Positions 2,039-22,930 of a stretch of 23,326 nt of DNA are shown piece after piece. The stretch is from IMG/VR virus record IMGVR_UViG_3300038459_000003, positions 1 through 23,326 of that record. The stretch is one strand, 5' to 3'. This stretch comes from a virus. The notes under the pieces are model-generated. The model had not been told where the DNA came from. It saw only the letters and a list, made by a program, of their open reading frames with translations, and made no database searches. The first letter of the stretch is position 1. Each line of letters begins with the position of its first letter. The position numbers were made by a program, and so were the translations under genes.

Positions 2039-3313
2039 TTAGTTCGTGGTGTTGCTGATGTTACTGATGAGGCAACACCGCGCCGGGGCCGTCTCAAGGA
2101 ACAAGGCGGTGTCGGACACAAGCCGAGTCTCGTAACCAAGAGCGTCCTGAATAATGACGAAATACTCGTCAGGATTCTTGACGCCAGGGTTAAACGCAAG
2201 CTCGGTGGAACCGATCCGCTTCCAAGACTTACCAAGGTCGGGGACGATGAAAGCCATAGTCGGCTTCATATACCCGTGCGGGATAATGGTCAACTTCCCG
2301 TTGGAGCTTTCAAACTCCAATTCCCCCGCGCCGTTCTTCATGGCGGTATCGGAACCCGTATAACGTCGGAGTCCAGCCTGATCGTTCAACAGGTTCGCCC
2401 AGGTCTGAGGAGAAACGATAACATCCGCATCCTGATTCAACCCACGGCCCACCGCAAGAGCGATAGCCTCTTGAAGCTTACCGAAGGTCAACGCCCCAGC
2501 CCCGGCGTCAAACGTCGAGCCAGCCCACAGGGAGTAGGTGGCCGCGTTGATACCGTAGAGGCTCCCCGTGTTGCCGCAGGTGTATTGAAGGCCCTTGAAT
2601 TCGACGCCATAGGCACCGATCCAATAGACATCCAACGCCGTTCCAGTGAGGGCTTGGAGCGTGGTCGTCCCACCCGTGGTCCCCACAACGGTTAAGGTCT
2701 TATTGACGACATCAACCAGGGAGATGGTGAAGATTGCATCTGCGCCGGAGCTAACAAGGGAGGTCGAATTGTAGAAGTTGACCTTCGCGCCTTCCTTGCC
2801 AGACCACAACCCAGGAGCCATATCAGCCAAAGGCACGACAGTCGTAATCGTGTCCGTGACCGTGAAGGCCGGGGTGGTCGCGGCTTTCGCAAGGCCCGAG
2901 CCGCCATACATCAAGACGGATTCGATGTAGGAGCTTTCCGATTCGACCATGTTGGAAATGAACAGCTCCAACGCATCTTCCACCGCCTGATCCTGAGAAG
3001 CGGAACGGACGATAGCATCAACGCCGATCTGTCCACGGAGGGCAAAGAACGTCGAAGAAATCGAGGCGTTCGCCATCGTCATGGCAATCGAGGCATTGAG
3101 GGACAGGGGCAGCGTCGAGGAAGAATTACCGAACGTGATACCCTGTTGGTTGGAGAGAATGACAGGCTGATTGTAATGCGCGCCGATTTTATCCCGCTGA
3201 CTGAACTTCGTCATTTTCAGGATTTTGGCGAAAGACGGAACGACGTTGATAACGGAATCACCGTATTTCTCTTTGGTAAGCCCGTTTAGAGTGGTAAGCG
3301 TATCTGAGGACAT
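2039..3313 (-). CDS. Major capsid protein
   Basis: A 424-residue protein directly downstream of the scaffold gene, the normal place and size for an HK97-fold coat protein. The N-terminal half contains a helical region (DKIGAHYNQPVILSNQQG, about residues 43-60) and an A/S-rich part (about 70-90). The C-terminal half has a segment typical of coat proteins (ADVIVSPQTWANLLNDQAGL, about 295-315), then a PHGYMKPTMAFIVP strand and DEYFVIIQDALGYETRL near the end. The ATG at 3313 has AAAGGAGA 7 nt upstream. That ribosome site and the start codon both lie inside a stem of the leader (see 3311-3363). The identification rests on position, length and general pattern; I cannot name the coat subfamily. Confidence 0.9.
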   Translation of the reverse strand: MSSDTLTTLNGLTKEKYGDSVINVVPSFAKILKMTKFSQRDKIGAHYNQPVILSNQQGITFGNSSSTLPLSLNASIAMTMANASISSTFFALRGQIGVDAIVRSASQDQAVEDALELFISNMVESESSYIESVLMYGGSGLAKAATTPAFTVTDTITTVVPLADMAPGLWSGKEGAKVNFYNSTSLVSSGADAIFTISLVDVVNKTLTVVGTTGGTTTLQALTGTALDVYWIGAYGVEFKGLQYTCGNTGSLYGINAATYSLWAGSTFDAGAGALTFGKLQEAIALAVGRGLNQDADVIVSPQTWANLLNDQAGLRRYTGSDTAMKNGAGELEFESSNGKLTIIPHGYMKPTMAFIVPDLGKSWKRIGSTELAFNPGVKNPDEYFVIIQDALGYETRLVSDTALFLETAPARCCLISNISNTTN

Positions 3314-3363
3314 TGTGCGTCTCCTTTGAAAGTATTTTCACTTTCGGGGAGAGTCGCACAATG
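3311..3363 (-). promoter_or_regulatory. Hairpin sequestering the capsid ribosome site and start codon
   Basis: CATTGTGCG (3311-3319) is a perfect inverted match of CGCACAATG (3355-3363), and TCTCC (3320-3324) matches GGAGA (3348-3352), with a 2-nt bulge. Inside is a second hairpin, GAAAGT (3328-3333) with ACTTTC (3340-3345) and a 6-nt loop. In the mRNA the capsid AUG and its AAGGAGA site are both base-paired, 14 bp in all plus 6 bp inside. Such a stem would restrict ribosome entry unless opened. Confidence 0.75.
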
Positions 3364-3578
3364 GCGGTTGCTCATCCGTAATTCGGTGCTACGATGAACG
3401 CGAGACGGTTTCCCGGTGGCTCACGTTTTACGGCAAAACTTCTTTGTTCCCTGGTCCTGCCCCAGGTTCCCCTATACAAGCGCGGCTCGTTAACTAGGGT
3501 ACGGTCTTCTCCGACACGGGCCTAGCCGGAGTCTCTAGATTGCCGTTGTGCGTCATCTCGCCGCACAGGAACAAATCT
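3364..3578 (-). promoter_or_regulatory. Structured 5' leader RNA of the capsid gene
   Basis: The 265-nt gap between scaffold stop and capsid start has no convincing protein gene but several consecutive hairpins on the minus strand. They are 3370-3376/3393-3399 plus 3378-3380/3390-3392 (10 bp, 9-nt loop, one bulge), 3399-3404/3420-3425 topped by CGG-GAAA-CCG (GNRA loop), 3425-3429/3435-3439, 3450-3454/3462-3466, 3509-3513/3527-3531, and 3547-3552/3562-3567. A possible 20-codon leader peptide runs from ATG at 3556 to TAG at 3494. No good promoter was found inside. It could be a regulatory RNA, an RNase processing region, or a structured RNA with its own function. Confidence 0.6.
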
Positions 3579-4493
3579 TTATCGTCCTCTCGCGGCCCTC
3601 ATTCGTTCTCGCCATTCTTCGGGAGTCTCTTTCGGCCTTTCTTCTTTCTTGCTCCCGGCGGGTTTCGGCCCAGGCTTCGGGGCAAGTCCAGCCGCCCGAA
3701 GTGCCGCCAAGTCCGCTTTTCTTAGCTTATCTATAACACCTTTTGGGATGCTTGTCAATAGCTGATCGTCCGGCTGTCCTTCAATGAATTGCCCGGTCCA
3801 GTCGATAAAGTCTTTCTTCGTCGCGGCGGCACAGGCTTTCATGTCTATTTCTTTTCCCGCGACTTTCTGCAACCGCATGTAATAGGCGATTTGCTGGACG
3901 ACCTTCTGAGTATTCGGTAATTTCTCCTCGGCTATTGCCGCGTCAATCATGGTCTTGAATTTTGCTTTAGCCGCCTCAGTGGCCTGTTTGTCCGCTTCTC
4001 TCTGTTGCGCGGTTTTCGCTTCTTCATCGGCTTTGAGTCTTGCGGCTTCCCTCGCCTTGAAGTCCGCAATCTCGCGATCCTTCGGGTCCATCTGCTCACG
4101 CTGTATCTTCTTCCACACACGCTCCTCTGCAAGCCTGTCAGGGTCCAGGCTTAGTGCAGGATTTTCCAAAACCGCCCAAGGGTCTCTTTTAATTAATTCC
4201 ACAAGCTGTGCCATTTGCGATTTAGAAAGATCGTAATCTTTTTGGATTTTGGCTATCTGCTGGAAACGTTTATCAGCTTCCCTAACCTTCCGTTCAGCCT
4301 CCATCGTACGCTCTCTTACTCTAGGCGACGCCTTTTCCCAATCCTCCCCCCATTTCTCAGCAAGTTCCTTTTCAAGAGGGTCAACCTCTTTGACTTCGGC
4401 GGCGGGAACTACCGGGGCCTTCGGATCAACTACCGGAGGCACAACAGGCTTCACGGAAACAGGCATAGGCTTAACAGGCGCGGCGGTCGTCAT
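3579..4493 (-). CDS. Capsid assembly scaffold protein
   Basis: A 304-residue, highly charged, mostly helical protein. It has a Pro/Val-rich N-terminal tail (residues 1-35), long coiled-coil-like Lys/Glu/Ala/Gln stretches (about 55-90 and 125-190), and a basic C-terminus (KKEERPKETPEEWRERMRAA). This composition and the place just upstream of the capsid gene are typical of scaffolding proteins, which nucleate procapsid assembly and leave before DNA packaging; the basic C-terminal helices usually contact the coat protein. Its ATG overlaps the previous stop codon (TAATG), so it is probably translationally coupled. Confidence 0.85.
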   Translation of the reverse strand: MTTAAPVKPMPVSVKPVVPPVVDPKAPVVPAAEVKEVDPLEKELAEKWGEDWEKASPRVRERTMEAERKVREADKRFQQIAKIQKDYDLSKSQMAQLVELIKRDPWAVLENPALSLDPDRLAEERVWKKIQREQMDPKDREIADFKAREAARLKADEEAKTAQQREADKQATEAAKAKFKTMIDAAIAEEKLPNTQKVVQQIAYYMRLQKVAGKEIDMKACAAATKKDFIDWTGQFIEGQPDDQLLTSIPKGVIDKLRKADLAALRAAGLAPKPGPKPAGSKKEERPKETPEEWRERMRAARGR

Positions 4494-5861: not shown

Positions 5862-6938
5862 TCATTGTGCAACTGTCCGGCTTGCTTCAACCATGTATGT
5901 TCCATCGGACACAAAGTTAAAGATGAAATACTTCCCGCTCGTCGTCCCCGTGGCAATCGTTCCCGTGCTTTTGAATCCAGTCCCAAAGGTCATGGTATAG
6001 GAATTTGTCCCGCTTGTGAGGATGATGAGTTGTCCCACGTTCCCAGACGCAGGGACCGTCGTTGTAAATGAGTTTGTCGCCGTCGGAGTAACCTTAACGC
6101 ATGAGTTCGTCCCAAAGGCCAGGGCAAGCGTTCCATTTGAGAGAGACGAGTAAACCATCGCGCCCGTGGCCCGCGTCAACGTCGCCTGTTTCCCAGAGAG
6201 GTCTGTAACCAAATTGGTCACATCGGATTCCGCGTGGCTGTGGGATGTAGACGCGGCTCCCACTTGGGCGGCAGTAGGTGTTGACGACGCCGCGTCCCAT
6301 GCCCCGCCTGTCGCGTGCGCCCAACCCGTTCCGGTAACGGTCGGCATTGGACCTGTACTCCCCGCTGCGCCCTGCGATCCCGTGTTTCCTGTTGGACCCT
6401 GCAACCCCTGCGGACCTGTATTTCCTGTGGCCCCCGTGTTTCCGGTTGCGCCTGTTGGCCCCTGAATACCTTGTGAACCTGTTGCCCCTTGAGGTCCGGT
6501 GTTTCCCGTCAATCCCGTTGGCCCGGTTAGACCCTGCGACCCGGTATCACCTTTCGGTCCTGTGGGACCAATGCTCCCCGTATCACCTTTAACGCCCTGG
6601 ATTCCTTGCGGTCCCTGTATCCCCGCTGTGCCTGTATCACCTTTCATGCCCTGAACGCCCTGAGAGCCGTTTGATCCTGTTAATCCTGTCTGTCCTTGTG
6701 GACCGACTGGTCCCTGAATACCGGTATCCCCGGTATCACCCTTATCCCCCTTAATTCCCGGTAGTCCTTGAGGCCCTGTGTCCCCTTGTGGTCCCCGTGG
6801 CCCAATATCTCCAGTATCCCCCTTTGGCCCTTGAATACCAGGAATACCGTCTTGCCCCTGTGGACCGGAACTATTCCAATCAGAAATACACACACACGGG
6901 ATTAAGCACATGGAAAGTAGAATTAAAAATTTATTCAT
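5862..6938 (-). CDS. Collagen-like fibre protein with signal peptide
   Basis: A 358-residue protein. Residues 1-19 ([19 protein letters not shown]) form a hydrophobic signal-like segment with three Cys. Residues 25-198 are about 58 uninterrupted Gly-X-Y triplets, with repeated GDT, GPQ, GIQ, GPT and GNT units. Residues 200-250 are a linker, and the C-terminal domain (about 250-358) is Thr/Ser/Gly-rich and beta-like, probably a trimerisation or receptor-binding cap. Collagen-like triplets in phages form trimeric rods in tail or head fibres. The ATG overlaps the portal stop (ATGA). Location between portal and scaffold suggests a head or neck fibre; the leader segment suggests membrane passage. 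The DNA of the Gly-X-Y region is internally repetitive and could expand or contract. Confidence 0.85.
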
Positions 6939-8947
6939 CTGTTTCCAACCCCTGCGGGCTGTGGCATATTTGGAAGCTTTACTTTGTCTGCCAAATTCGT
7001 GACGGGATTACCGTTGTGCATGACCTGAGCGGCGTTATCTCCCGGCTTAGGTGGAATTGCTTGAGGAGGCGGGGGCGGTGCGGGTTGATTCAGGACAGGA
7101 AGCTGTAGCATCCCCGCTAAAATTGGGTCCATCGCCTTCGCGTTCTGTATGTGCATCATGTTATGTTTCAGGACGGCTTGGACTACTTTGGGAGTCTTTC
7201 GGGCATCAAGGTTTGCAAGGACGCTGTTATGTCCAAGAACGTGCTTCGGGTCGTCGTCACCCATAACCGCTATCACGTCCTCACCACGAAGCAAGGCTTC
7301 GTTTTCCTCTTTGATTAGGAGAAGTTGCGCCGACTCTCCTTCGACGAGGGTTTCCATCGTTCCAGTCTCAATGATCGAAAGGTACTGACTCGCGTCCTTA
7401 ATCATCCCAGGAACACGGAGCAAGTCTTGGGCGATCTGCAAACGTCCCGCCGTTGTCTGGGCAAGAGGGTTTCCGACTTCAACAGTCACTCGGTCAATGT
7501 TCGCAATATCTTTCCCGGTGAACTGCGGTATATACTGAGTGTTGTATTTCCCTGCGACGGCGATAAGACGCGGAGCCTTCGCGTAGTTTTTTAGAATGTC
7601 TATCAACGACGTTCCAACGGATTCAATCAGGTTGATGTAATTCCGCTGGAATCCACTTAGGAACTGAATCGCCTGAGAAGCTACAAGAGCAAGAGCCGAT
7701 CCGCTTTTAAGGGACGCTTCCGGCTGTCCCCGCATGACGCTATTAACTCCGCTGATAATCTCCATTTGCTGGATCAGATGATCCATTTGTTTGAAGATTT
7801 CCGGGTCCGTATGCAAAAGGTTCAACGTCGTTGGCTTGGTATCAACCCCAGGCATCGGGGATGTTTCGATGAACCGCAAGCCCCCATCCAAAAAGCTCAC
7901 ATCCGTTCCCGCGCCCTTAATCCCGCAAATCGTCTGCACCCCGAACATGGCCTGGTTCGTGGCGACGGTGCTTTCCAACATGTCTAGGTTTTCTTGCAAA
8001 GGGAGGAGGTCAAAGACTACCGAAGTCCCGAAGGCGTTTCCGGGTTGTTCTTGTGCGCATAGCCTGTGTAGAACTTGCTTATGGGGGAGAGGCCCATCAA
8101 TTAGAACTGTGTCGCCCGATTCGACGAACATGCACAACCGACCTTCGGGGACTACCGCGTTCTTCTTGTGGATCAACGTATAGACAGGAACCAAATCAGA
8201 TTCGCCTTCGTAAATAGGGTGCCCGAAGTGCATCTTCTTCATGTTTCCAACGGAAGAAACGGAAGACAAAATATCATGCTCGGCATTAGGGAACTTCGCC
8301 GCAAGCTCCCATTTGTTCATCCACTTCCGCGTGATGTAATACTGGCAATCATCCGCGCTGTTTACCGTAACGTCATAGAACACGTCCAGGGGAGAATACA
8401 CATACCAGTTTACGTCACCGTCTTTAATTGGCTTTTGAGTTTCAGGATTGACCGCAATATCGTTTCCGTCCGTTGGATTCCAAAGCTCCTCAATAAAAGC
8501 TGTGGCAAATGTCAAGCAGATGTCCGCCGCCAAAACGTGCCGATCCTCTAAACCGTTGTCCGTGTAGTAGGTTAAAACGTTCTTGGCTACTTTGGTCTGC
8601 GCGAGGCTTTGAAAATCGGAGTTTGTGGCCCGAGGGGTAAGATTCTGTTTCGATCCCGTGACGTTGTTGATGATGTGATTGCAAATGTTTCCTAAGTGAT
8701 TGTTCTGCGTAATGAGAAATTGGTTTTTGTCCCCAGCCGTCCGAATCCGTGAGCCTTCGATTGTCCCGATGTAACGCTTCTTGTAAGCCCGCTTCCATGT
8801 CGCCAGCCTTCCGGTCCTTTCCACGTATGAGGCGTAATCGTCAATACGCTTCATGCAAGCATTGACTAATTCCGTCCCGTCCTTTAGGGCGAAATAGTCC
8901 TCAAGCTGGGTGTTCGTGTTCCTTTGCTGTGTGCTAGTCTCGGTCAT
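6935..8947 (-). CDS. Portal protein
   Basis: A 670-residue protein two genes after the large terminase. The N-terminus ([19 protein letters not shown], about 50-68), the middle ([20 protein letters not shown], about 180-200; [20 protein letters not shown], about 312-332) and the [20 protein letters not shown] segment (about 405-425) are typical of portal proteins, in which a helix after an M-x-G-x-P-E turn lines the DNA channel. The C-terminus is Pro/Gln-rich ([15 protein letters not shown]). Portals form the 12-subunit ring at one capsid vertex, where terminase docks and the neck attaches. The length is in the range of large, podovirus-type portals, but the subfamily is not decided. ATG overlaps the previous stop (TAATG). 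Confidence 0.92.
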
Positions 8948-9168
8948 TATTGATCCCCGAAAATCTCTTTGATACCAGGATGGTCTTTGAAAATCCTATC
9001 CCGCAACCGCACAATCTCATTCAAACAATCTTTCGGATGCAAAACCCGTGTCGTGTAGGTCATTCCCTTTTTGTCGCTCCCTACAATGGCCCCAACGATC
9101 CAATAGCCTTTCATGCTCTTGGCCGGACGCAAGACCTTGAATTCCCCTTCCTTGCATGAACACTTCAT
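8947..9168 (-). CDS. Small hypothetical protein between terminase and portal
   Basis: 73 residues, overlapping the terminase stop at its start (ATGA) and the portal start at its end (TAATG). The ATG has GGAGG 5 nt upstream. It begins MKCSCKEGEFKVL, giving one Cys pair, and ends in a charged helix (CLNEIVRLRDRIFKDHPGIK). No family recognised. The tight overlaps show it is translated as part of the packaging operon. Confidence 0.75.
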   Translation of the reverse strand: MKCSCKEGEFKVLRPAKSMKGYWIVGAIVGSDKKGMTYTTRVLHPKDCLNEIVRLRDRIFKDHPGIKEIFGDQ

Positions 9169-10619
9169 GAATCCCTCCGCATAAACGGATTCGATCCAAT
9201 CAAAGCCCGGTGTATCTTCTGCGCCGCGTCTCCCGGCGCCGCCTTGCTCTTGTCGAAATACTGGTTCGCGTAATTCACGTTAAAATCGGGCGGTATCGGG
9301 TTATGCACTTCGTCCACGTTTCGGACCAAATAAACAAGCGCGGCCAGCGCGTCCATGTGTCCAAGTATAACCGACCGCGCAAACTCGTCCTTTTTCTTGT
9401 TCCATATTCCGCCCTTGATCGTCTGCAAGAGAAGCTTGCACCTTGCGTTGATTCTTAGCCTTCCCGCGTTTGCCCACAACCTTACCTTGTTTACCATCGC
9501 ATTCAAAGAATCTTTCGAGGTAGCCGATATCGAGAGGCCGTGAAGTCGGGAAAAATCCATGAGTAGAATCTGGTTGTCCGAGTCCCCGATCCTTCGATAG
9601 ACTGGCAGACTGTTTATCCATCGCTCTTTTTCCTTTGCCTTGATTTCTTCGGCCAAGTCCAGGGTCGTCCAGTTCCGGCCTTCCCTTACAATCTCATCTT
9701 CTATGAAAAGAGCCGCTTTCGTGAAATCGTAGTATCCCAACAACCCAACCGTCTTATCCGTCGTCCCGGTGTCGATGCTGAAATACTTGTCATGAAACCG
9801 TGTAACCGGAGACGTGTCCGAAACCGTGTAAATGTGCTTTTCGTTCCATTCGGGAACAATCAGCCTTTGCGTGTCGTAAACTCGCTTGCACAAGTATTCC
9901 CGGTCCCATGCGTCTTGACTAGTACAGCGCCGCTTTGCCTCTTCGATCTTCTCGGGAGGAATGTCTGACTCGTAAATATCAAACCGAATCAGGTTTCCTT
10001 TCAGTTCCGCCGCGTCTATGTATTTATCCACCGGATGATTAGGAATCTCCGGCGGCGTCGTCGTCATGATGGTTCTCGGCTTTGACTTCGTCCTCAAGAA
10101 CATCGGATTAAGAATGTTGTCAATCACGTAGTCTAAGGGGTAGCTGTCGTCCTCATCCCCAAAGAAAGACGCCTCATCAATGACCACCAGCTTGACCTTG
10201 TGGATTCCACGGATGTCCTCAATGTGGCCCATCTCAGCGCCCACAAGATGCGCTCGGATTCCTCCGGGGAACTGGTAGTAGCTGTCTTGCCCGTTATACT
10301 TCGGCTTCAAGTCCTCGGGACAGTCAAAGAGCAAAGTGTCAAAAGCCGGTTTTACTATGGTCCGCAACTTCTTTAACGTCGCGGAGATAATCAAAATCTG
10401 TTCGTCGCCTTCCGGTGCCGCTTCTTCCATTACTAACGTGCTTCCGATGAAAGTCTTACCGAAGCCCCGCGAACATATTACGGGCAAAACATCTTCGGGC
10501 GGTGAAGCTTTTATCGCGTCGTAAACCCTTTGTTGCTTAGGCTGTAACTTGTACTTTAACCGCCCCGTTTTCCACGCGAGATAAATCGCTTCCTTCACGT
10601 CCTGCATTGTTGGCGACAA
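9165..10619 (-). CDS. terL: Terminase large subunit (packaging ATPase and nuclease)
   Basis: 484 residues from the TTG at 10619, which has GGAGG 9 nt upstream; the ATG at 10607 is the other plausible start. The ATPase domain has a Walker A motif, SRGFGKT, at about residue 50, and a Walker B, LVVIDEAS, at about 145. A TTTPPE coupling-like motif follows at about 187. The C-terminal RNase H-like nuclease domain shows acidic residues in SIDTGTTD (about 283), GDSD (about 346-348) and GHMDALAAL (about 423), the usual metal-binding set. The enzyme cuts concatemeric DNA and pumps it through the portal. It overlaps the small terminase gene by about 80 nt, so the two are probably coupled. Confidence 0.95.
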   Translation of the reverse strand: MSPTMQDVKEAIYLAWKTGRLKYKLQPKQQRVYDAIKASPPEDVLPVICSRGFGKTFIGSTLVMEEAAPEGDEQILIISATLKKLRTIVKPAFDTLLFDCPEDLKPKYNGQDSYYQFPGGIRAHLVGAEMGHIEDIRGIHKVKLVVIDEASFFGDEDDSYPLDYVIDNILNPMFLRTKSKPRTIMTTTPPEIPNHPVDKYIDAAELKGNLIRFDIYESDIPPEKIEEAKRRCTSQDAWDREYLCKRVYDTQRLIVPEWNEKHIYTVSDTSPVTRFHDKYFSIDTGTTDKTVGLLGYYDFTKAALFIEDEIVREGRNWTTLDLAEEIKAKEKERWINSLPVYRRIGDSDNQILLMDFSRLHGLSISATSKDSLNAMVNKVRLWANAGRLRINARCKLLLQTIKGGIWNKKKDEFARSVILGHMDALAALVYLVRNVDEVHNPIPPDFNVNYANQYFDKSKAAPGDAAQKIHRALIGSNPFMRRDS

Positions 10620-10905
10620 TTTGCCCCGCCTCCTCAAGCATTTTTAACGTAGCCAACGCCCGGTTAACATTCTGCACAGATTCTTCGGAAGTCAAAGGAA
10701 TTTGCGCCCTTCCTAACAAAGCCTTGAACGCCGCCATTGCAATCCAGGCACGGTCCGTTGGCTTCAAATCCTTCCACTCGTTTATAACGAGGCCATACCA
10801 GTATTCGAGATTCGCCCATTTTTTGTCACGCGATCCCTTCGGACGCCCCGGACCAGGATGCCCGTCTCCAACAAATTGACGCGAACCGTTCAACGTTTTT
10901 GTCAC
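10537..10905 (-). CDS. terS: Putative terminase small subunit
   Basis: 122 residues from a GTG start at 10905. The N-terminal GPGRPKGSRDKKW motif (about residues 18-30) is a hallmark of one type of phage small terminase or DNA-binding packaging protein. A helical middle (EEWKDLK-like, then RAWIAMAAFKALLGRA) and an Ala/Lys helix (NRALATLKMLEEAGQI, about 80-95) fit an oligomeric DNA-recognition protein. It lies directly before and overlaps the large subunit. The ribosome site is weak (AAAGGG about 11 nt away), but no better start is visible. Function is inferred from motif and position. Confidence 0.8.
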   Translation of the reverse strand: MTKTLNGSRQFVGDGHPGPGRPKGSRDKKWANLEYWYGLVINEWKDLKPTDRAWIAMAAFKALLGRAQIPLTSEESVQNVNRALATLKMLEEAGQIVANNAGREGSDLSRVENGAVKVQVTA

Positions 10906-13853: not shown

Positions 13854-14078
13854 TTTCGGTTCCTCCCTGAAATTGTCCCCGGCCTTGCGACCGGGGTTTG
13901 GCGGGCTAGACTTTTTTGAATCACCCCGACCTCGACCTCGACCTCGACCCCAACCACGACCTCGACCTCGACCCCAACCACGACCTCGACCACGACCCCG
14001 ACCCCGACCTCGACCTCGACCACGACCCCGACCTCGACCTCGACCACGACCACGAATTTTCCCATCCAATCCGTGCAA
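13815..14078 (-). CDS. Alternative frame: Arg-Gly repeat protein
   Basis: From a TTG at 14078 an 87-residue frame reads about 22 Arg-Gly dipeptides (residues about 9-52), then DSKKSSPPNPGRKAGDNF and MTNKETGLEDHK. RG-rich tails bind RNA in many proteins. No clear ribosome site precedes the TTG, and the hexamer repeat keeps all frames open, so this reading is weaker than its length suggests. The end overlaps the next gene by GTGA, which is the best argument for it. Confidence 0.3.
   Translation of the reverse strand: MHGLDGKIRGRGRGRGRGRGRGRGRGRGRGRGRGWGRGRGRGWGRGRGRGRGDSKKSSPPNPGRKAGDNFREEPKMTNKETGLEDHK
13877..13896 (-). promoter_or_regulatory. GNRA-loop hairpin in an intercistronic gap
   Basis: CCCCGGCC (13877-13884) pairs with GACCGGGG (13889-13896): 8 bp with one G-U and a GCAA tetraloop on the minus strand. 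No U-tract follows, so it is more likely an mRNA stability or processing element than a terminator. Confidence 0.5.
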
Positions 14079-20988: not shown

Positions 20989-21788
20989 GAGCTTTTTACG
21001 TTCGCTTGCTTTGCGATGGCCTCCGCTTGCGCACAAATCGCGTCGTAGGCGGGACGATCAATTTCTTTCGTATGTTCCACTTTGTAGTTCGACTTCATGA
21101 ACGATTTTAGGGCTTCTTGCCGTGAGTTTTTATCTTCGTCCCCCTGTGATCCGCTCATGAGGATGGCAAACAATCGTTTCCCTTGCGCCTCGCTGATCTT
21201 CCCGCCGCCCGCACCGCCCCCGGCGTAGTCCACCTTCCCAACCTTTTCCAGGTCAATGCCGGACTCCCGCAATTCCTCGATTGTATAACTCAGACCGAGG
21301 ATTTTCTTTAGGAGACGGCCCTGCAAGTTCGTGACGGCCTTTTTCTTCACATCCGTCAAATCCACGTCTTGCAATGGCTTCGCCTTGCCTCCCGACCGAC
21401 CGAAAAACTCGTCCCGAGTGGAACAAGTCCCGATGTCCTCAACCGTCCGCCCTTTGAATTCCGCACCCCCCTGGACGGTGAAAAGGATATAGTCACCGTT
21501 CGCATCGGAAATGCGCTCCCCACTCTCAGGCATGAATTTTCGTCCCAGGAAGTTCACGCCCCAAAGTTGGGCGATTTTCATGCACCCCATGTTTTCGAGG
21601 TAAGGCTTACCGCTTTGGAGACTCCAATCCGAGTAGTTCGTCACTTTGATGGAAATGGCCTTGATCTTCTTGACGCCTTCCACCATCATCTCCGCCCGTC
21701 GGATAGCCTCCTCGTTCAGCAGTCCATCGGCAATCGCCAGGGGCTGTTCGACACGCTCAACTATTTCACCGTCTTTCAATTCAGACAT
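20985..21788 (-). CDS. Putative single-strand annealing protein (Rad52-like)
   Basis: 267 residues from ATG 21788, with AGGAG 8 nt upstream; an earlier ATG in frame lies inside the HNH-type gene. The segment [20 protein letters not shown] (about 107-126) then [20 protein letters not shown] (about 145-165) resembles the Rad52 core, where an E-D-x-G strand precedes a K-x-A-V-T-x-x-x-x-R-x-L helix. A Gly-rich linker (GGGAGGGK) and a charged C-terminal helix follow. Directly upstream of a Cas4-like nuclease, the usual pairing of annealing protein and exonuclease in phages. Family placement is a distant similarity and not certain. Confidence 0.65.
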
Positions 21789-22254
21789 TTGCTTTTCTCC
21801 TATTGTTAGCTTGATCTTTCGGTGTCGCCCACCGGCAATTACTTGGCTCATAATTTCCGTCGTTGTCGATCCTGTCGATACTGTAATATGAATCCGGTTT
21901 CCTACCCATGTCTTTTAGGAACATCTCAAACGATTTAGACCACCGTTCGCATACTGAAATACCACGTCCACCATATCTTGAATATCGGTTCCCCTTTTCA
22001 TACCTGCAACGTTCAAGCATTTTCGCCCAAGACCGATATTCTGGACTCGACTTTCTACCCCTAGTTTCTCCGTGGGTTGTCCGTCGAATACTTGTTAGTT
22101 CCTTTTTCAAACATCCACATGAACGGGTATTGCCTCCGTCAACGCTGTAAATCATACACATAAAAACATGACCGCATCGACACAAGAACCATCCTGTTTT
22201 ATGGCTCCTACGTTTCCCTTCAAACCCAATGAAGACCGGTTTAATTTCCTTCAT
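21781..22254 (-). CDS. HNH-type endonuclease-like phage protein
   Basis: 157 residues from ATG 22254. N-terminal Cys ligands (FLCRCGHVF, then RSCGCLKKE) form a zinc knuckle. The central part ([20 protein letters not shown], then [12 protein letters not shown]) leads to [20 protein letters not shown] and a Q-x-N-N-R-R end. This is the familiar layout of phage HNH/AP2-type proteins, often free-standing homing-type nucleases. The start is the first ATG after the leader terminator; the in-frame ATG at 22401 would translate that hairpin and overlap the promoter. It is the first gene of the recombination operon and overlaps the next by 8 nt. Confidence 0.75.
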
Positions 22255-22263
22255 AAAAATAGA

Positions 22264-22299
22264 CCCCCCTCCGACCCAGGCATGGGAAACGGAGGGGGG
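22264..22299 (-). terminator. Leader terminator abutting the HNH gene start
   Basis: CCCCCCTCCG (22264-22273) pairs with CGGAGGGGGG (22290-22299), 10 bp, with an inner CCC/GGG pair, followed on the minus strand by TCTATTTTT and then ATG (22254). The G6 of the 3' arm lies 9 nt before the ATG, the same spacing as at the replication gene. The loop 22274-22286 is perfectly complementary to 22364-22376 at the transcript's 5' end. Confidence 0.8.
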
Positions 22300-22309
22300 C
22301 AAAGTAAAA

Positions 22310-22346
22310 GCGGTATGCTTTCCCCCCAAATGGAAAAGCACACCGC
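22310..22346 (-). ncRNA. 15-bp hairpin in the recombination-operon leader
   Basis: 15-nt arms 22310-22324 and 22332-22346 pair fully in the minus-strand RNA (two G-U pairs) around a 7-nt loop. It sits between the 5' antiterminator arm (22364-22376) and the terminator (22264-22299), holding the two at a fixed distance. It is too far from any start codon to act on translation directly. Confidence 0.7.
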
Positions 22347-22363
22347 CGTTTAGATTGTCCTGC

Positions 22364-22376
22364 CCCATGCCTGGGT
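22364..22376 (-). promoter_or_regulatory. 5' antiterminator arm of the recombination leader
   Basis: On the minus strand ACCCAGGCATGGG, about nucleotides 5-17 of the predicted transcript, is a perfect 13-nt reverse complement of the terminator loop at 22274-22286. If it pairs with the loop, the terminator's two arms are separated by a helix and the stem is hindered. Confidence 0.65.
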
Positions 22377-22386
22377 TCATGCCCAT

Positions 22387-22415
22387 ATTATTGCTCTCCA
22401 TTTTATCGTTGTCAA
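22387..22415 (-). promoter_or_regulatory. Sigma70-type promoter of the recombination operon
   Basis: TTGACA (22410-22415) is followed after exactly 17 nt by AATAAT (22387-22392), five of six -10 matches. Start expected near 22380. It lies 11 nt past the 3' end of the tRNA-like element, and the leader downstream carries the terminator and antiterminator arms. Confidence 0.85.
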
Positions 22416-22426
22416 CAACAAATTTA

Positions 22427-22486
22427 GCCCCTGCGAGGGATCGAACCTCGGACCGTGCAACGCTCTACCATCTGAGCTACAGGGGC
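22427..22486 (-). pseudogene. tRNA-like sequence with truncated anticodon arm
   Basis: The acceptor arms GCCCCTG and CAGGGGC are perfect, the D-arm (GCTC-AGATGGTA-GAGC) is normal, and the T-arm (CGAGG-TTCGATC-CCTCG) is normal. Between the D-arm and T-arm only GTTGCACGGTC (11 nt) remains where a tRNA has about 23. It looks like a loss of 12 nt: the anticodon loop and the 3' half of its stem. A 3-bp CGU/ACG stem with a UGC loop is the only anticodon-arm-like fold possible. It cannot decode normally. It may be a decayed tRNA or a tRNA mimic. Confidence 0.8.
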
Positions 22487-22858: not shown

Positions 22859-22930
22859 CTGGCAGGGAAGGGATCGAACCTTCAATCACTCGGTTAACAG
22901 CCGAGAGCATTACCTTTGTGCTACCTGCCA
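22859..22930 (-). tRNA. tRNA-Asn (anticodon GTT)
   Basis: Acceptor TGGCAGG/CCTGCCA, anticodon stem CTCGG/CCGAG with loop CTGTTAA giving GTT, T-arm GAAGG-TTCGATC-CCTTC, discriminator G. The D-arm is short (GCA/TGC with an eight-to-nine-base loop). CCA is not encoded. It begins 2 nt after the stop of the gene at 22933-23055 and would be cut from the early transcript. Phage tRNAs usually supply codons used more by the phage than the host. Confidence 0.9.

Follow-up and report, generated by a model that had tools for sequence, protein, structure and literature searches.

The capsid leaders of the phage family examined here carry one to three copies of a small hairpin, GGAY-G..C-YAYCC, and together they make up an undescribed hairpin family that stands before capsid genes across very diverged, uncultivated phages. 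The leader RNA probably tunes the amount of shell protein made. A sequence-only reading of one member of this group had proposed a four-segment switch in its capsid leader; the hairpin family is a broader and better supported finding than that switch, parts of which are nonetheless real.

The window, by which we mean the whole stretch of DNA analysed, is a virus record of 23,326 bases. Its minus strand encodes, in order, a terminase (9165-10637), a portal of the P22 type (6935-8947), a collagen-like gene and two more genes, a scaffold-like gene (3579-4493), a non-coding capsid leader of 265 nt (3314-3578) and the major capsid (major head) protein gene (2039-3313; phrog_14242, E=9.5e-7). The scaffold-like gene sits between portal and capsid, and its product is 25% identical to the protein at the equivalent place in a related locus, L003. 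Where the window has its leader, relatives have a similarly sized gap. The capsid family is nearly missing from cultivated phages, with a single Silvanigrella phage (24% capsid identity) as its only cultivated member, and this phage has a short 66-nt gap in place of the leader. The plasmids searched gave no match, nor did the GTDB genomes, which were searched with poor patterns. Elsewhere in the window, an HNH endonuclease gene lies on the minus strand at 21781-22401 (phrog_374, E 3.4e-48), with two tRNA matches near it (22426-22486 and 22859-22930). A tandem repeat of 6 and 24 bases (13923-14055) codes for an Arg-Gly- or Val-Glu-rich stretch depending on frame, and a tRNA-Arg called by ARAGORN antisense within the portal gene (7308-7382, plus strand) is without Rfam support and probably false.

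A hairpin family in capsid leaders

Relatives were gathered by a portal fragment scan and a capsid alignment scan, which together yielded many related loci, most of them with a non-coding leader of 100-400 nt ahead of the capsid gene. The hairpin recurs within single leaders: L092 has GGACGCUACGGC(C/U)AUCC three times, and L113 has GGACGCAAUCGCCAUCC twice. In its strict form the pattern occurs 2.05 times per kb in capsid leaders versus 0.066 (sense) and 0.056 (antisense) elsewhere, an enrichment of about 31-fold. The strict pattern demands at least two inner pairs, so these pairs cannot be counted as evidence. Covariation is seen at the two pairs that the pattern does not include (p 0.002 and 0.01), the both-side changes are matched by one of 500 shuffles, and in an alignment of 11 rows four different Watson-Crick types occur at the outermost pair. 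The copies thus form a covarying family on the sense strand. In 16 whole records, 17 of the 20 matches to the model fall in the capsid leader, 11 of the 17 being training copies; among non-training matches at E<=1 the figure is 9 of 12. None of the 4227 families of Rfam 15, Mu-gpT-DE (RF03012) included, gives a covariance-model match above chance to the window leader or those of its relatives.

On a capsid tree of 41 rows, 20 of the 21 rows scored as motif-bearing lie in one half. Up to 12 changes are needed on this tree, which indicates that the motif is often gained and lost, or that weak copies are often missed. Copies are found 40-160 nt upstream in most relatives.

The strict position, the strand bias and the covariation together suggest each copy as the binding site of a factor. 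Repeated, strand-specific sites at a fixed intergenic place would also suit a factor whose target is RNA polymerase or DNA, in antitermination, replication or packaging, and which has nothing to do with translation. We consider this quite improbable, given that the hairpins come directly before the capsid RBS, that covariation shows the paired form to matter, and that neither a promoter of its own nor a coding-strand terminator was found in the window leader.

Several leaders depart from the common arrangement. One copy (L116:1518-1548) lies just upstream of a presumed scaffold gene and not of the capsid gene. At the start of the capsid leaders of L078 and L079 stand a hairpin resembling a terminator and a good sigma-70-like promoter (TTGACA, TATAAT), which suggests a separate capsid transcript in those phages. 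A clade of 12 phages (L128, L131, L134, L139, L143, L151, L159, L161, L162, L166, L169 and L171) has another, longer leader (243-309 nt) in which blocks such as AACAACTATGTTAT and AAGGAGATTT recur. These leaders are without the strict GGAYG hairpin, none of the nine tested has an Rfam match, and they are possibly a second structured leader type.

Window copies and predicted closure of the capsid start

The phages nearest to the window are L172, whose capsid is 64% identical, and L013, of whose capsid just the end is covered (about 70% over 37 residues). The leaders of both contain, twice each, an elaborated copy of the form GGAU-GAG-CAAC-stem-loop-N-CUC-UNCC. A covariance model (R1) built from those four copies alone has its best two matches in the 23-kb window at 3342-3381 (E=2.1e-8) and 3396-3428 (E=0.02), both in the capsid leader. 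The corresponding minus-strand copies, m1 (AACGUGAGCCACCGGGAAACCGUCUCGCGUU, 3397-3427; the second-best match) and m2, the last copy (CGGAUGAGCAACCGCCAUUGUGCGACUCUCCCCG, 3345-3378), fold as the L172 and L013 copies do. Measured against the family hairpin, m1 is without the outer internal loop and m2 reads UCCC instead of UACC. Outside its loop m2 differs little from the second copy of L172. The loop itself is CAUUGU in the window versus GAAA in L172, and it is this difference that makes segment C of the proposed switch (CAUUGUGCG, 3355-3363, minus strand) complementary to the capsid start. That segment C falls within a repeated, conserved hairpin had been missed. As a separate observation, L013 has an extra frame of ~70 codons with a GTG start (L013:11368-11580) between scaffold and leader, which is missing in L172 and in the window.

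Segment C and segment D (CGCACAAUG, 3311-3319, minus strand) are predicted to form a strong hairpin (3311-3363) in which most pair probabilities are about 0.9-1, and in which an anti-SD, CUCUCC (3348-3353), pairs with the SD, GGAGA (3320-3324). An arm with at least 12 of 13 matches, counting C:D together with CUCUCC on GGAGA, arises in two of 20,000 dinucleotide shuffles, and SD and AUG are closed as fully as here in seven of 1,000 shuffles. The earlier proposal that C:D buries the capsid SD and AUG is therefore borne out as a predicted fold. By sequence comparison, the exact C:D pairing is peculiar to the window phage. A search of IMG/VR for the exact C-N-D arms returned five loci, none of which matches the window in capsid or scaffold.

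Loss of this complementarity in related phages had been named as evidence that would count against the switch. That evidence is half there: L172 and L013 do lack the A, B and C sequences, but they keep a predicted SD/AUG-closing hairpin in the same place, made of different bases. In each of these two phages GGAG is paired by the CUCC that ends the last hairpin, and the pairs formed by the AUG and its preceding base differ between phages in both partners (CAUU:AAUG for the window, CGUG:CAUG for L172, UAUG:CAUG for L013). Of the four capsid starts that rank as most closed among 67, three belong to these phages and the window, and only one of 176 other gene starts is equally closed. Closure to the degree of the window, L172 or L013 is found in 4-7 of 1,000 shuffles, about 0.5% for each. 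The recurrence is suggestive, the three phages being related and so not independent.

A wider claim, that capsid starts are more closed throughout the family, was rejected. The SD of most relatives is no more closed than that of other genes (p 0.99), and SD closure is therefore not a family-wide mode of action.

Local folding predicts the same order of events in all three phages, the last hairpin being the best structure until the SD is transcribed, and the RBS hairpin thereafter. When the whole window leader is folded, B:C outcompetes m2 in the nascent RNA, and in the finished RNA m2 is disfavoured relative to C:D by about 17 kcal/mol; even in folds where m2 is imposed, the SD is predicted to be only 29% unpaired. 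The whole leaders of L172 and L013 are no more stable than shuffles.

The hairpins could instead be elements of mRNA stability or processing that raise the level of capsid transcript, the RBS hairpin of this clade being incidental or simply opened by ribosomes. We regard this as unlikely, if less so than a factor on polymerase or DNA. The number of copies (1-3), their variable distance to the AUG (about 40-156 nt for clear copies) and an SD that is mostly open in relatives all suit such a role. The hairpins also have conserved unpaired bases, namely a Y opposite YA and, in the window clade, CAAC, which suggest recognition and not mere stability, and RBS closure recurs with changed bases in all three of the nearest phages.

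The four-segment switch

The sequence-only reading held that translation of a 20-codon frame decides between an off state (A:B with C:D) and an on state (B:C). All four segments do exist on the minus strand, which is the RNA strand, with A (UGUGCG) at 3562-3567 and B (CGCACAA) at 3546-3552. Nine bases of D are repeated in B and six of C in A, so that one short repeat pair makes A:B, B:C, C:D and A:D pairings all possible, the last of which had been overlooked. A B:C match of 7 bp is by itself no rarity, arising in 283 of 20,000 dinucleotide shuffles. A:B plus B:C together was seen in none of 20,000, in a test that was framed post hoc.

Our folding predictions are for equilibrium at 37 C, with kinetics outside the model. 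They agree with the earlier reading in that the leader has competing folds: B:C is favoured in nascent RNA ending before the SD (mean probability 0.96), and A:B with C:D in the finished full leader, where the probability of B:C is 0. They disagree with it in that B:C does not free the capsid start. When B:C is forced, the best structure lies only 5.9 kcal/mol above the minimum; A pairs with D and CUCUCC largely stays on the SD, which is 26% unpaired, or 5% with A blocked as well. Nor would a ribosome choose the fold. Whether the ribosome is placed on the 20-codon frame or at the stop of the scaffold gene, C:D is still predicted to be closed, and it persists in every version in which A, B or both are blocked in a ribosome-like manner.

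The 20-codon frame (MTHNGNLETPARPVSEKTVP, 3494-3556, minus strand) is present as described but has a poor SD, with a duplex of -2.4 kcal/mol versus -8.7 for the capsid gene, and it is probably not translated. L172 and L013 lack any equivalent of the frame, of segments A and B, and of the A:B hairpin (UGUGCG-N9-CGCACA, 3546-3567, minus strand). These features lie in a 5' extension specific to the window (3433-3578, minus strand), the whole L172 leader being 145 nt long. This half, to which several further hairpins had been assigned, is not clearly better folded than shuffles (z -1.29), and a strongly structured 5' domain is unconvincing; the 3' half (3305-3432) does fold better than shuffles (z -4.36). 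We conclude that a strong RBS hairpin and alternative pairings specific to the window are real, and that the switch built on them is too specific. Control by a ribosome on the 20-codon frame seems to us highly improbable.

A candidate regulator and known systems

We favour a reading in which the leader is a cis-regulatory capsid RNA in which the last hairpin cannot form together with the RBS-closing one, and put its chances at about even. The tandem conserved hairpins (GGAY-G-stem-loop-stem-C-YAYCC) would form a cis-acting regulator of capsid synthesis, with each copy as a putative site at which a trans-acting factor, probably a protein, binds. No candidate RNA-binding protein was found among the proteins scanned. 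In the window, L172 and L013 the pyrimidine 3' arm of the last copy would double as anti-SD and its loop region would pair with the AUG. The last copy shares bases with the RBS hairpin, so that formation of one would exclude the other. A finished leader with nothing bound would have its RBS closed, and capsid synthesis would be low; a last copy held by the factor, or during transcription, would leave the SD more open and allow capsid to be made, although control could run in the other direction. One lineage would thus have re-used a conserved hairpin to close its own start site. More speculatively, and with considerable doubt, the tandem hairpins may be a new class of phage RNA element that senses a small ligand or one of the assembly proteins, capsid or scaffold, thereby tying shell-protein synthesis to assembly in a whole family of uncultivated tailed phages. 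A short, well-defined hairpin before the capsid genes of very diverged phages is a ready target for naming the factor.

Tailed phages need a balance of scaffold and capsid, and we know of few RNA elements that provide it. The scaffolding protein of P22 autoregulates post-transcriptionally in a manner tied to assembly, the regulated gene being scaffold and not capsid; no RNA element of the capsid-leader kind is known to be involved. The window shares with P22 the portal-scaffold-capsid order and the portal type, and only these support autoregulation of the P22 type here. The ermC-type translational attenuator has four segments with alternative pairings, one of which closes the SD. Its layout is like that of the window leader, which lacks both a well-initiated leader peptide translated from a ribosome site of its own and an alternative pairing that opens the SD. 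The coat-protein operator of the MS2/R17 type, located at a translation start in an RNA phage, is a small hairpin whose recognition bases are unpaired, and it represses replicase. The capsid-leader hairpin is likewise small with unpaired bases, but it differs in motif sequence and comes in one to three copies per leader. Mu-gpT-DE is a conserved RNA linked to a phage head gene, as the window leader is, and located downstream of that gene. Its Rfam family (RF03012, named in PMC7657543) has no match in the window leader.

A further parallel is the mom leader of phage Mu. As one account has it (PMC6483171), the translation start lies in a stem, which the Com protein opens by binding the adjoining RNA. 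The Mu gene is a DNA modifier and the window gene a capsid, no Com-like protein was found among the proteins scanned, and the available text of that account does not describe tandem conserved hairpins of the window kind (PMC6483171). Common to both is a phage mRNA whose start is closed by a stem, and in the window free RNA is predicted to be shut at the start, as activation of the Com/mom type presupposes.
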